Source: Clostridia bacterium
GTDB lineage: Bacteria > Bacillota > Clostridia > UBA1381 > UBA9506
NCBI GenBank assembly: GCA_017416855.1
Contig: JAFQAZ010000022.1
Location: 1 to 41,674 of the forward strand
DNA: 41,674 nt
Reading direction: 5' to 3'
A program made the position numbers and the translations under genes. This document shows positions 1,121 through 15,268 of this stretch, in pieces. Position 1 is the first letter of the stretch, and each line of letters begins with the position of its first letter. Below the pieces are notes generated by a model. That model saw only the letters and a program-made list of their open reading frames with translations, was not told the origin of the DNA and made no database searches.

Positions 1121-1385
1121 ACGTATGATGAATAAAAGCAATGAAAAGGCAAAGTAAAGCCGCCAACACCTCAAAAAGAGAGAATTTCTCACCGGGCTGA
1201 AAGGAAATTCGGTTAAAGGCGCGCTCGAAATTTCACCTTGGAGCTGCACAGTTGAAAGCTTTTAGTAGGCTGTGCCGGATCTGCGACCGTTATGCGCCAA
1301 TTAAGTCGGGTAAAACCGAAAAATAAGGGTGGTACCGCGTACGATTTTATCGTCCGTCCCTTTGTGGGACGGGCGTTTTTTATTG
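1121..1385 (+). promoter_or_regulatory. T-box riboswitch, Phe specifier (TTC)
   Basis: The untranslated leader contains the canonical T-box AGGGTGGTACCGCG (1326-1339), which pairs with the acceptor end of uncharged tRNA in the antiterminator. A strong terminator follows: a 10-bp stem (1351-1360 with 1366-1375) and a T run. In Stem I the specifier context CTCGAAATTTCACCTTGGAG places codon TTC (Phe) at 1232-1234, which fits the downstream pheS-pheT. Uncharged tRNA-Phe would favour read-through. The whole space between the acetyltransferase and pheS is accounted for by this element and its promoter. Confidence 0.95.
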
Positions 1386-8739: not shown

Positions 8740-8763
8740 TTTAAATTTCACCTCACCGTTCAA

Positions 8764-8894
8764 ATTAAAATAAGGCTTTTCTCCGCAAACGAAGAAAAGC
8801 CTTTTATGCTTTCATAAAATCGCTCTCCTCGGTTGGCGCTTTCGCATTATATCCTTTCGGACACCAACTGTCTGCGGAAAATATTTAACTAACA
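8764..8894 (-). promoter_or_regulatory. Ribosomal protein L10 leader
   Basis: The transcribed region between the rplJ promoter and rplJ is about 130 nt and highly structured. It ends with a 10-bp hairpin (8794-8803 with 8772-8781) followed by TATTTTAATTT just before the rplJ ribosome site, which looks like an attenuator. Position and architecture match the L10 leader known from Bacillus-type rplJL operons, where the L10-L12 complex binds to repress. Confidence 0.8.
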
Positions 8895-8899
8895 AAGTT

Positions 8900-11517: not shown

Positions 11518-13692
11518 ATGTCTAAGATATTAGTTTTAGCTGAAAAACCCTCCGTGGGAAAAGAGCTTGCCCGGGTTTTGGGTTGTCGCAAATTTGCCGA
11601 AGGGGCAATTCATGGTGACCGGTATATCGTCACCTGGGCACTGGGGCACCTGGTCACTCTGGCCACCCCGGAGCATTACGGTAAAGAATATAAAAGCTGG
11701 CGATTGGAAACTTTGCCTATGCTGCCCGATAAAATGGCCTTGGAAGTAATTCCCGCCACCAAAAAACAATACGCCGTTGTCCGCAGTCTGTTAAAAAGCG
11801 AAGAGGTCTCTTCCTTAATAATAGCAACCGATGCCGGACGGGAAGGTGAACTGGTTGCCCGTTGGATTATTCAGAAAGCAGGCTTTAAAAAGCCCATTCA
11901 GCGTTTGTGGATTTCCTCGCAGACTGATAAAGCCATCCGGGAAGGCTTCCAGAATTTAAAAGACGGTAAAGACTACGAAAACTTATACCACTCTGCTCAA
12001 GCACGCGCCGAAGCCGATTGGCTGGTAGGGCTGAATGTAACCCGTGCCTTAACCTGTAAATATAACGCTCAGCTTTCTGCCGGCCGTGTGCAAACCCCCA
12101 CTTTGGCAATGATTGTAGAACGGGAAAATGCCATCCGAAAGTTTACAGCCAAAGAATATTTTAATGTAAAAGCTGATTTAGGGACTTTCACCGTAACCTA
12201 CCGCGACAAAAATAACCAAACCGCTATCTTCGATCGTCAAACCGCTGAGACTATTGCTACAGCTATTAAAAATAAAACTTTTACCCTTTCATCTTTAACC
12301 AAAACCAATAAAAAGACTCCACCTCCGGCACTATATGATTTAACAGAACTGCAACGTGATGCCAATAAACAATACGGTTTTTCTCCCAAACAAACCCTGT
12401 CTGTAATGCAGTCATTATATGAACGGCACAAAGCCCTCACCTATCCTCGTACCGACTCACGTTACCTGACGGATGATATTGTGCCTACCTTATATGACAG
12501 AGTCCGTGCTGTATCTTTTGGTGACTTTACACCCACTGCCGGTGCCATTTTAAAAGAAAAACGCACAATTGCTAAAAGTTGTGTAAACAATGCAAAGGTG
12601 ACAGACCATCACGCCATTATCCCCACTGAGCAAGGTGTGAACTATTTAAACCTTTCTGATGACGAAAAGAAAATTTACCGCATGGTCATCCTGCGGTTTT
12701 TAACCTGTTTCTTTGAGGCCTATGAATATTGCTCTATTAAAGCATCCTTAAACTGCGGTGATTATGATTTTACCGCTCAGGGGCGGGAAATTATCAACAA
12801 AGGATGGAAAAAAGTGTATGATGTAGCAGACGAAGAAGAGGAAGAAGAACAAACACTTCCCTCTTTAAAAGAAGGTATGACCTTCCCCTGCCAATCTGTC
12901 CTCATCAAAAGTGGAAAAACCACCCCGCCGGCACGGTATACAGAGGCTACTCTCCTTTCGGCCATGGAAAACCCCGGTGCCTTCATCGAAGATAAAAAAA
13001 TGCGTGAATTTATCGGTAGTGGTTTAGGCACACCGGCAACCCGTGCCGACATTATCGAAAAATTGTTTTCTTCCTTTTATATTGAAAAATCCGGCAAAAG
13101 TATTGTCCCCACAGCTAAAGGCATACAGTTGATTGATCTGGTTCCTTCTGATTTAAAAGAGCCCCTGCTCACCGCCAAATGGGAACAAAATTTAGAAGCG
13201 ATCAGCAAAGGCAACGCTGCTAAAAAAGAATTCATTAAAGAAATCCGTGGATATACCCAGTCCTTGGTAAAAACCGTAGTAGCTGAGGATAAAAAATATA
13301 AGCACGATAATATGACCACCACTCCCTGCCCTGTTTGCGGCAAAATGCTTCTTTCGGTCAACGGAAAAAAAGGCAAAATGCTGGTCTGTCAGGACAGAGA
13401 ATGCAGTTATCGTCAGAATGTGAGCCTGAAAACCGGTGTACGTTGCCCCAACTGTCACAAAACCATGGAATTATTTGGTGAGGGCGATAAACGGATTTAC
13501 ATTTGTCCCTGCGGCTACCGGGAAAAACTGGCTGCATTCCAGAAGCGCAAGGAAAGTGATGGTTCAGGGGCCTCCAAACACTATGTTCAAAGCTATTTAA
13601 AAAATCAGAAAAAGCAAGAACCAAAAGAAGAAAAAACAGCGATGCAACTGGCCTTTGAAAAAGCTATGGCAGAGAAAAACAAAAAGAAATAA
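11518..13692 (+). CDS. topB: DNA topoisomerase III (type IA)
   Basis: A 724-residue type IA topoisomerase that decatenates or relaxes negatively supercoiled DNA. The Toprim domain is at 1-145 (LAEKPSVGKEL; TDAGREGELVARWI with acidic metal ligands), followed by QLSAGRVQTPTLAMI. The catalytic tyrosine is about Y309 in TYPRTDSRYL. The C-terminus carries zinc-ribbon cysteines (CPVCGK, CPNCHK, CPCGY, about 600-665) and a lysine-rich tail. ATG at 11518 follows AAAGGAG; an earlier in-frame ATG at 11488 has no site. A TACAAT -10 lies at 11479-11484 with a poor -35. Confidence 0.95.
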   Translation: MSKILVLAEKPSVGKELARVLGCRKFAEGAIHGDRYIVTWALGHLVTLATPEHYGKEYKSWRLETLPMLPDKMALEVIPATKKQYAVVRSLLKSEEVSSLIIATDAGREGELVARWIIQKAGFKKPIQRLWISSQTDKAIREGFQNLKDGKDYENLYHSAQARAEADWLVGLNVTRALTCKYNAQLSAGRVQTPTLAMIVERENAIRKFTAKEYFNVKADLGTFTVTYRDKNNQTAIFDRQTAETIATAIKNKTFTLSSLTKTNKKTPPPALYDLTELQRDANKQYGFSPKQTLSVMQSLYERHKALTYPRTDSRYLTDDIVPTLYDRVRAVSFGDFTPTAGAILKEKRTIAKSCVNNAKVTDHHAIIPTEQGVNYLNLSDDEKKIYRMVILRFLTCFFEAYEYCSIKASLNCGDYDFTAQGREIINKGWKKVYDVADEEEEEEQTLPSLKEGMTFPCQSVLIKSGKTTPPARYTEATLLSAMENPGAFIEDKKMREFIGSGLGTPATRADIIEKLFSSFYIEKSGKSIVPTAKGIQLIDLVPSDLKEPLLTAKWEQNLEAISKGNAAKKEFIKEIRGYTQSLVKTVVAEDKKYKHDNMTTTPCPVCGKMLLSVNGKKGKMLVCQDRECSYRQNVSLKTGVRCPNCHKTMELFGEGDKRIYICPCGYREKLAAFQKRKESDGSGASKHYVQSYLKNQKKQEPKEEKTAMQLAFEKAMAEKNKKK

Positions 13693-13735
13693 AACTATAA
13701 TGTTTATAAAAATATATTCCTTTCTTCAAAATATA

Positions 13736-13764
13736 TTGCTTTTTTCAGATTCTTAGGGTACAAT
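13736..13764 (+). promoter_or_regulatory. Promoter of the leader ORF-mgtE transcript
   Basis: TTGCTT (13736-13741), 17-nt spacer, TACAAT (13759-13764). The start point should be near 13771, giving a leader of about 130 nt before mgtE. Confidence 0.75.
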
Positions 13765-13799
13765 AATAAAATAGAAATTATAACAAGGAGGCGAACACA

Positions 13800-13871
13800 A
13801 TGGATACAGTTCCCGGGCGATGGACTGAACAATTACATAATACCCAAGGGGAACGTGTCTTTTTCGCCTGA
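13800..13871 (+). CDS. 23-codon leader ORF upstream of mgtE
   Basis: An ATG placed 8 nt after a perfect AAGGAGG (13785-13791) opens a 23-residue peptide beginning MDTVPGRWTEQ and ending ERVFFA, with a TGA stop at 13869-13871. Its ribosome site is the strongest in the transcript, stronger than that of mgtE. The ORF covers two of the helix arms described for the leader. Its stop lies 5 nt before an ATG (13877) in frame with mgtE, which allows termination-reinitiation. I do not recognise the peptide; a regulatory role is inferred from position only. Confidence 0.6.
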   Translation: MDTVPGRWTEQLHNTQGERVFFA

Positions 13872-13953
13872 TTCTTATGCGTTCCCCGGAAAGGAACGCT
13901 ATGGAGGAAACAAAAGTAATGGAGGAAACGCTCCGCGATACCGTGGAGCGTTC
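13809..13953 (+). promoter_or_regulatory. mgtE leader with competing helices
   Basis: Six short arms can pair in alternative ways. A GTTCCC (13809-13814), B GGGGAACG (13848-13855), C GCGTTCCCC (13879-13887), D GGAACGCT (13893-13900), E AACGCTCC (13927-13934), F GGAGCGTTC (13945-13953). A:B, C:D and E:F form one set; B:C (8 bp) and D:F (7 bp) form the other. A and B lie inside the leader ORF. C:D abuts the mgtE start, and D:F would enclose its start codons and GGAGG. No M-box consensus is recognisable. Confidence 0.55.
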
Positions 13954-15268
13954 TCTGCAGGAAAACCGGTATGCAGACATCCGTATGCTACTGCTGGACA
14001 TGAACTATGTAGATATAGAAGTTCTGTTATCTGAACTACAGCCGGATAAAATGCTGCGAATATTTCGTATGCTCCCGAAAGAAACAGCCGCAGAAGTCTT
14101 CACAGAGATGGATAGTGATATGCAGCAGTATATCATTGAGTCCATCACCGATTCTGAAGTTGTTCGCATTATGGATGAGTTGTTTATGGATGATACCGTA
14201 GACTTTCTGGAAGAAATGCCTGCCAATGTGGTCAAGCGTGTATTAAAAAGCACCGATGAAGCCACCCGCAAAACCATAAACCAACTGCTGCAATATCCCG
14301 ATGATAGCGCCGGTAGTCTTATGACCACCGAGTTTGTGGATTTAAAGAAAGAAATGACCGTTAAAGAGGCATTAGAGCACATCCGCAAAACCGGTGTAGA
14401 CAAAGAAACCATTAACAACTGTTATGTGGTGAGCCCCCAGCGAAAGTTGGAGGGTACGGTATCCATCCGCACCCTGATTTTAAGTCAGCCGGATGCCACG
14501 ATGGAAGAACTGATGGATACCAACATCAAATACATTAACACCTTAGATGACCAGGAGCGCTCTGCCTACCTTTTCCGGAAATATGACCTTTTGTCTATGC
14601 CGGTGGTGGACCGTGAGCAACGTTTAGTGGGCATTATCACCATTGATGACATTGTGGACGTTATTGAACAGGAAAATACTGAAGACTTCCACAAAATGGC
14701 AGCGATGACCCCTTCTGAAATTCCTTACCTGAAGACCGGTGTATTCACATTGGCCAAAAACCGTGTGACATGGCTTTTGGTGCTGATGATTTCAGCCACT
14801 TTTACAGGCTTTATCATCCGTAGTTTCGAAGGAACCTTAAGCCAGGTGGCCTCTCTCACAGCTTATATGCCTATGCTGATGGGCACAGCTGGCAACGCTG
14901 GTGCACAGTCTTCTACTATGATTATCCGAAGTCTTGCTTTAAAGGAACTCGGGTTTTCAGATATATTGAAGGTTATGTGGAAAGAGCTCCGTGTCGGCGC
15001 TGCAACAGCTTTTTTACTGGCCGTGGTGAATTTTATCCGCATCATGATTTTCGACAGTGTCACTATCCCCATTGCCCTGGCTGTTTGCCTGAGCTTATTC
15101 TGCATTGTCTGCCTTGCTAAGGTTATCGGCGGTATGTTACCGGTGCTGGCAGATAAAATCCATGTAGACCCTGTCTTAATGGCAAGCCCCATCATCACCA
15201 CCATTTTAGATGCATTATCTTTGTTTATTTATTTCCGCTTTGCCACAAGCATTTTAGGTATTGCATAA
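13901..15268 (+). CDS. mgtE: Magnesium transporter MgtE
   Basis: A Mg2+ channel of about 455 residues. The cytosolic N domain of helical repeats (about 1-125) and two CBS domains (about 130-250: MTTEFVDLKKEMTVKEALEHI; DLLSMPVVDREQRLVGIITIDD) sense Mg2+ in known homologues. The C-terminal pore domain has five hydrophobic helices (about 275-455), with GTAGNAGAQSST in the conserved position. Three in-frame ATGs compete: 13877, 13901 and 13919. 13919 has GGAGG (13903-13907) upstream, and 13877 could be reached by reinitiation from the leader ORF. I list 13901 as the middle choice; the start is uncertain. Confidence 0.93.
   Translation: MEETKVMEETLRDTVERSLQENRYADIRMLLLDMNYVDIEVLLSELQPDKMLRIFRMLPKETAAEVFTEMDSDMQQYIIESITDSEVVRIMDELFMDDTVDFLEEMPANVVKRVLKSTDEATRKTINQLLQYPDDSAGSLMTTEFVDLKKEMTVKEALEHIRKTGVDKETINNCYVVSPQRKLEGTVSIRTLILSQPDATMEELMDTNIKYINTLDDQERSAYLFRKYDLLSMPVVDREQRLVGIITIDDIVDVIEQENTEDFHKMAAMTPSEIPYLKTGVFTLAKNRVTWLLVLMISATFTGFIIRSFEGTLSQVASLTAYMPMLMGTAGNAGAQSSTMIIRSLALKELGFSDILKVMWKELRVGAATAFLLAVVNFIRIMIFDSVTIPIALAVCLSLFCIVCLAKVIGGMLPVLADKIHVDPVLMASPIITTILDALSLFIYFRFATSILGIA

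Follow-up and report, generated by a model that had tools for sequence, protein, structure and literature searches.

The window analyzed here, a 41,674-nt stretch of contig JAFQAZ010000022.1 from a Clostridia bacterium of the gut (assembly GCA_017416855.1), contains a gap of 208 nt between the end of a topB-like topoisomerase gene at position 13692 and mgtE (Table 1). The product of the downstream gene matched the mgtE equivalog TIGR00400 with 472 bits versus a cut-off of 233 and contains PF03448, CBS, and PF01769 domains; by these profile matches, the gene downstream of the leader is mgtE and encodes a clear TIGR00400 magnesium transporter. The gap holds a promoter matching the consensus, a feature missed in the preliminary description of this DNA, which places the expected transcription start near 13771, 30 nt 5′ of the leader ATG. 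The same arrangement of −35 element, 17-nt spacer, and −10 element recurs in 9 of the 10 species of the genus and at 4 loci of the sister genus, with 32 to 45 nt between promoter and leader start. The mRNA leader should begin near 13771 and reach ATG 13901, a length of some 130 nt, of which only about 30 nt precede the leader open reading frame (ORF). Elsewhere, the window has ordinary Rfam matches to a T-box leader (1132 to 1364, forward strand) and a ribosomal protein L10 leader (8760 to 8895, reverse strand).

Table 1. Positions of leader and mgtE features in the window
Feature	Position	Strand	Remarks
Promoter TTGCTT-N17-TACAAT	13736..13764	+	Consensus match
Leader-ORF Shine-Dalgarno AAGGAGG	13785..13791	+	Sequence; GGAGGCG invariant in genus alignment
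Helix P1, 5′ arm AGGCGAA (leader SD flank)	13789..13795	+	Pairs with 13863-13869
Leader ORF, 23 codons, MDTVPGRWTEQLHNTQGERVFFA then stop	13800..13871	+	Conserved in ten same-genus species
Arm A, GTTCCC, codons 4-5 (Val-Pro)	13809..13814	+	A:B paired in 60/60 cells
Arm B, GGGGAACGTGT, codons 17-20	13848..13858	+	Pairs with A or with C
Helix P1, 3′ arm TTCGCCT, to first base of stop codon	13863..13869	+	Pairs with 13789-13795
Arm C, ATGCGTTCCCC; C:D uses 13879-13885	13877..13887	+	B:C and C:D cell counts
mgtE Shine-Dalgarno AAAGGA	13890..13895	+	Half within arm D; kept as GAAAGGA or GGAAGGA in 10/10 species
Arm D, GGAACGC, pairs with C	13893..13899	+	Overlaps mgtE SD; C:D −12.3 kcal/mol
mgtE	13901..15268	+	Start ATG 13901 (MEETKVMEETL...); TIGR00400, PF03448/CBS/PF01769

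Directly upstream of this Mg2+ transporter gene is a short ORF led by a strong Shine-Dalgarno (SD) sequence, with the length and the AAGGAGG motif first reported for it. Its product begins M-D-T-V-P-G-R, combining an acidic residue at codon 2 with an early proline. The first ten residues include one acidic residue (Asp2) rather than two or more, both here and in most relatives; two occur in the leaders of some relatives (MDPEP, MDFDP, MDYPDP, and MDTDP). The pattern GGAGG-N3-9-ATGGAY-N6-CC, an SD followed by ATGGAY..CC, has a single occurrence in the window's whole genome, at this leader.

As had been described, ATG 13877 is in frame with mgtE and follows the leader stop codon by 5 nt. This ATG was rejected as the mgtE start, since it is not conserved and all same-genus relatives keep ATG 13901, at which the protein begins as ME/MD-E across the genus. 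In all ten species the mgtE SD lies 5 to 7 nt 5′ of the conserved ATG.

Competing helices in the mgtE leader

The 183-nt region around the leader folds at −61.4 kcal/mol compared to −43.0 (standard deviation, 3.9) for shuffled sequences (z = −4.7; 0 of 200 shuffles). As first noted, arms A and B are within the leader ORF; arms C and D lie between the ORF and mgtE. The four arms can pair either as A:B plus C:D or as B:C. This is a set of mutually exclusive stems, 1:2 and 3:4 versus 2:3, with the ribosome binding site of the next gene in 3:4. Predicted energies in the window are −13.3 kcal/mol for A:B with its extension, −15.7 for the 11-bp B:C helix, and −12.3 for C:D, and the A:B/B:C/C:D chain outscored 100 of 100 shuffles of the tail. 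The C:D helix had been said to abut the mgtE start; arm D does adjoin ATG 13901 and holds part of the SD AAAGGA, although the start is not at 13877. An additional helix absent from the preliminary description, P1, links the flank of the leader SD to the end of the leader's own ORF. Two pairings proposed earlier, E:F and D:F, were rejected as parts of the device: they lie within the mgtE coding sequence, are present in the window only, and are already lost in L001 despite the 97% identity of its MgtE. No intrinsic terminator (hairpin plus U-tract) between leader and mgtE was found in 13500 to 14200. A covariance search, proposed at the outset as a check, gave no M-box (RF00380) match at the gathering score in the window nor at an E value of up to 5 in 13600 to 14100, and no other Rfam family matched in the leader.

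Masking the RNA covered by a ribosome changed the predicted accessibility of the mgtE SD in the window. Opening the SD costs 6.3 kcal/mol without a ribosome, 1.9 to 2.7 with the P site at codons 2 to 12, and again 6.9 to 7.5 with the P site at codons 13 to 20. The interval of opening, codons 2 to 12, coincides with the conserved start MDTVPGR. When the transcript stops at C and a ribosome occupies codon 7, B:C is the best fold.

Conservation of the ORF and of the alternative pairings in close relatives had been named as a check able to overturn the proposal, and both were found in ten same-genus species with complete leaders (the window, L001 to L007, L010, and L092), assembled by a contig profile scan plus genome search. 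In all of them the ORF begins MDTVPGR/Q/H or MDAVPGR and the SD and arms A to D are present. Before counting, the rows of the window and L001 were shifted by hand, as MAFFT places their arm C one column off (an extra C in the loop); paired cells over the ten species then numbered 55 of 60 for P1, 60 of 60 for A:B, 69 of 70 for C:D, and 76 of 80 for B:C. Two-sided changes within the genus occur in the last pair of P1 (A-U to G-C) and in C:D (G-C to A-U). Because A:B is nearly invariant and falls within codons for the conserved peptide, its pairing is weak evidence by itself.

The energy of B:C exceeds that of C:D in 8 of 10 species, and the B:C fold with a ribosome at codon 7 and the transcript ending at C was predicted in 10 of 10. 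At equilibrium, the masked-ribosome calculation gave clear SD opening in 6 of 10 species and a small gain in L004 to L007, so the model needs B:C to have formed before D is transcribed.

The sister genus, represented by L008, L009, L045, and L091 with MgtE 72 to 74% identical, has leaders beginning MDSSPVRKR, MDASPVRKR, or MDSSPARRR. The chain in L008 consists of arm A (start codon included) GAGCUUAUGGAUUCC with GGGAUUCAUAGGCUC, B:C as AAGGGAUUCAUAGG with UUUGUGAAUCCCUU, and C:D as AUCCCUU with AAGGGAU. Between the genera, B:C differs by three two-sided changes (GGGAACG:CGUUCCC to GGGAUUC:GAAUCCC). Since the arms differ yet again form a chain, the layout was kept while arm sequence changed on both sides. 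In one sister-genus locus, L045, the last hairpin is followed by a T-rich tail, TTATTATTT, and could be a weak terminator.

Leaders ahead of transporter genes in class Clostridia

To extend the comparison, the 350 nt before the gene were searched in 170 distinct Clostridia mgtE upstream regions. A strict pattern required an SD-led ORF of 10 to 70 codons starting MD.{1,2}P (proline at codon 4 or 5), and a loose pattern accepted an SD-led acidic start (M-D-x-x-P or similar). Leaders were found in 74 of 170 regions by the strict and 98 of 170 by the loose pattern, compared to 0.35 (maximum, 1) and 1.55 (maximum, 4), respectively, in dinucleotide shuffles of the same regions. By family group, 33 of 48 had loose and 23 of 48 strict leaders. 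Among other SD-led ORFs on both strands of the mgtE loci, 8 of 1,236 fit the strict pattern; four of these eight (in L014, L029, L033, and L038) are directly before an mgtE match in loci outside the set, and a fifth (L023) precedes a further mgtE copy. Two groups of loci were left out of the mgtE leader set. Copies of mgtE stand in tandem in some relatives (L011/L091 and L023), and the leader ahead of the further copy in L023, MDPWPRQ, is of the same type.

The leader consensus is M-D-[S/A/P/T]-[G/S/V]-P-[L/G/V]-[P/R]. The pattern itself demanded Asp2 and allowed the proline at either codon 4 or codon 5; 67 of the 69 distinct strict leaders have it at codon 5. Asp2 is encoded by GAT in 49 and GAC in 20 of these 69, Pro5 by CCT in 37, CCC in 23, CCG in 6, and CCA in 1, and the leaders start with ATG, GTG, or TTG. 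Such synonymous variation, together with varied start codons, indicates that selection acts on the peptide.

Several further features emerged from the class set. Codons 6 to 8 have fixed synonymous choices (TTA for 22 of 26 Leu, CGA for 18 of 20 Arg, AGT for 18 of 21 Ser), which suggests a constraint on codon or RNA beyond the peptide. A mid-leader R-A-I-A/T stretch, frequent in families f9, f51, f23, and f38, is arm B (AGAGCCAUA), conserved as RNA and not as peptide. Seven loci (L135, L141, L145, L153, L167, L186, and L195) have glycine-rich leaders without early proline, MDAGGNxGxxGR and similar, a subgroup that may be a second sensor type.

An M-box was present upstream of 10 of 80 sampled mgtE genes, and 5 of those 10 genes also had an MD leader, so mutual exclusion of the two elements was rejected. 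In L121, L122, L125, L162, and L163 the M-box comes first, then the MD-type leader ORF, then mgtE, as if two Mg2+ sensors had been placed in series.

Helix competition was scored in the 98 leaders by requiring ungapped A:B, B:C, and C:D helices with arm A in codons 2 to 10, compared to 100 shuffles of the sequence after A. In this test, 44 leaders fell in the best decile and 22 beat all shuffles, both counts being inflated by relatedness; by family group, the median was in the best decile in 10 of 33, and in several groups no ungapped chain was seen. In some clades the output must differ, or the helices must be bulged and so have escaped the script. The score ignored the position of the mgtE SD. 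Among the 46 best chains, those equalled by no more than 10 of 100 shuffles, arm D overlapped this SD in 31, often as AAGGAGGGCYRC...ATG, making sequestration of the SD a common output.

Because the ORF pattern was drawn up after the first relatives had been seen, it was tested on other genes, for which there is an independent prediction: a leader that responds to Mg2+ should also stand ahead of further Mg2+ importers. Such leaders were found in about 8 of 23 loci of MgtA-type P-ATPases (TIGR01524; 22 of 23 at or above its cut-off and L222 just under), with starts MDSCPRSQM, MDGSPDGLCN (twice), MDTYPSYTS, MDSGGYVPV, MEDGLPSN, and MESGSGCDI, plus one or two by a looser reading. For CorA, 2 of 29 loci had leaders. 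The two corA leaders, MDIDPYPNYS and MDTDPYPNRS (L254 and L259), belong to a single family. None was found before other P-ATPases (0 of 7), NRAMP (0 of 15), or TrkH (0 of 28), or 0 of 50 in all. Leaders ahead of MgtA-type transporters strengthen the inferred sensing of Mg2+ through ribosome stability.

Proposed attenuation and alternative explanations

Judged by comparison, the leader of mgtE is a real, conserved translational attenuator. Comparison across species showed the conserved ORF and peptide start, the competing helices, the mgtE SD within arm D, and the association with Mg2+ importers. Comparative evidence also gives good support to the original proposal that translation of the leader selects the helices and sets mgtE translation; leader translation appears to decide which hairpins form, and hence whether mgtE is made. 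We consider a cis-acting translational attenuator with low Mg2+ as the most likely signal to be the probable explanation of this leader.

We infer translation of the ORF, a pause or drop-off upon it, the Mg2+ signal, and the direction of the response. By default, P1 and A:B would fold the leader ORF while C:D hides the mgtE SD, keeping mgtE off. A ribosome paused on, or lost from, the first codons (M-D-T-V-P-G-R) would cover or unwind arm A. Arm B, now free, would pair with C once C is transcribed, leaving D unpaired and mgtE translated. If the leader were read to its stop, the ribosome would cross B, C would pair with D, and mgtE would be off again; P1 would limit reinitiation once the whole leader is made. 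The signal is likely Mg2+: a low intracellular level would be felt as ribosome destabilization or slow elongation at the acidic/proline N terminus, as for MgtL and mgtQ in enterobacteria.

The same attenuator could instead read a different signal, such as a general stress on translation or a lack of charged tRNA-Pro or tRNA-Arg. Pro5 is nearly invariant, codon 7 usually encodes Pro or Arg, and the mgtP leader of Salmonella mgtCBR responds to charged tRNA-Pro (PMC8092293). Yet proline codons number no more than one or two per leader, Arg/Lys runs take their place in the sister genus, the most constant residue is Asp2 rather than a proline run, and the leaders track Mg2+ importers, not TrkH or NRAMP. 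A signal of this kind seems unlikely.

Simple translational coupling, in which translation to the leader stop opens C:D and feeds ribosomes to mgtE, would suit the distance of 29 nt between that stop and ATG 13901, the predicted loosening of C:D by a ribosome at the stop (codons 23 and 24, in the window), and the overlap of the ORF with the mgtE start in some clades (L100, L105, L110, and L122). It leaves unexplained B:C, the fixed peptide start, and the leaders of the g3 loci (L006-type spacing aside), which end 100 to 200 nt before mgtE, and we regard it as improbable.

An undescribed Mg2+ riboswitch, with an RNA aptamer switching the helices and the ORF incidental, appears slightly less probable still. 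Mg2+ transporters are classic riboswitch targets, and the first 30 nt of the leader ORF are highly conserved in the genus. Against an aptamer, the expected transcription start about 30 nt before the ORF leaves no upstream room, no Rfam family matches, and what is kept across clades is the reading (start codon, SD, synonymous variation at Asp and Pro, and stop), whereas nucleotides and helices differ. Finally, chance hairpins beside an unused ORF can be dismissed: short ORFs and GC-rich hairpins are common, but the conservation and enrichment results refute this explanation.

Relation to known magnesium leaders and significance

Enterobacteria are known to control Mg2+ uptake through leader peptides, as mgtA does with MgtL; mgtE of Bacillus uses an M-box. 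To our knowledge, the M-box has been the only control described so far for mgtE in Clostridia. The preliminary description had recognized neither pattern here. Its verdict stands for the M-box, which shares with the present element cis-regulation of mgtE in Bacillota and has no match in the window; on the other hand, the layout matches that of mgtQ-mgtB and the N terminus that of MgtL. In ermC-type attenuators, a ribosome paused in the leader ORF swaps helices and frees the SD of the next gene. The mgtE leader is alike in freeing an SD by a helix swap, whereas the ermC type involves antibiotic-induced arrest and resistance genes.

The closest counterpart is Salmonella mgtQ (8 codons, with Asp2, Pro4, and Glu5), which precedes mgtB in the mgtCBRU operon and has been shown to act by this kind of attenuation; stem 2:3 competes with 1:2 and 3:4, of which 3:4 contains the mgtB ribosome binding site, and loss of Asp2/Glu5 lowers MgtB (PMC8092293). 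Both systems have an SD-led short ORF with Asp2, a proline codon (CCC) inside arm 1, and the ribosome binding site of an Mg2+ transporter hidden in 3:4, and the mgtQ-mgtB energies of −16.4 (2:3) and −12.26 (3:4) kcal/mol (PMC8092293) are close to the −15.7 and −12.3 of the window. Unlike the 23-codon leader here, mgtQ has 8 codons, lies between two operon genes in enterobacteria, has Glu5 where Pro5 is found here, lacks a counterpart of P1, and controls a P-type ATPase unrelated to MgtE. The peptides are too short, and mgtE and mgtB too unrelated, to imply common descent, and the likeness could be convergent.

MgtL, ahead of mgtA in Escherichia coli and Salmonella, likewise has an acidic residue at position 2, early prolines, and an Mg2+ importer downstream, and its EPDP causes ribosome drop-off at low Mg2+ that switches the mRNA fold (PMC11282234), a step whose counterpart here would be the proposed B:C switch. 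It differs in its two acidic residues, compared to one in MDTVPGR, and in its output of Rho-dependent transcription termination rather than SD sequestration. The 'mgtE motif' SRC-65-1 is also a candidate cis element before mgtE, reported only in Thioalkalivibrio as a riboswitch candidate with no upstream ORF described (PMC11109978), and the upstream ORF of the mycobacterial M-box differs from the mgtE leader element (PMC12810186). No earlier report of an mgtE leader ORF or peptide was found in the open-access library searched, and MD-type leaders before Clostridia magnesium importers seem not to have been described before.

On comparative grounds, the mgtE leader can be placed among the leader-peptide attenuators known for Mg2+ uptake, and it is distributed more widely than expected. 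Leaders before more than half of the sampled genes suggest that leader-peptide control is a main route of mgtE control in Clostridia, and the range of genes suggests that the same short acidic/proline start serves unrelated importers. We lean, with somewhat less confidence than for the mgtE attenuator itself, toward a class-wide Clostridia regulon in which very short M-D-x-x-P leader peptides sense Mg2+ within the ribosome and came to stand independently ahead of mgtE, MgtA-type ATPases, and a few CorA genes, in parallel to enterobacterial mgtL and mgtQ. If true, a general nascent-chain Mg2+ sensor would have arisen in, or been kept by, distant phyla. Should Mg2+ prove to be the signal, it would be sensed by the ribosome itself in a large share of gut bacteria. 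The residues that render nascent chains Mg2+ sensitive are known at present from a few peptides of E. coli and Salmonella; under the same condition, comparing about 100 natural leaders would reveal what those residues are.
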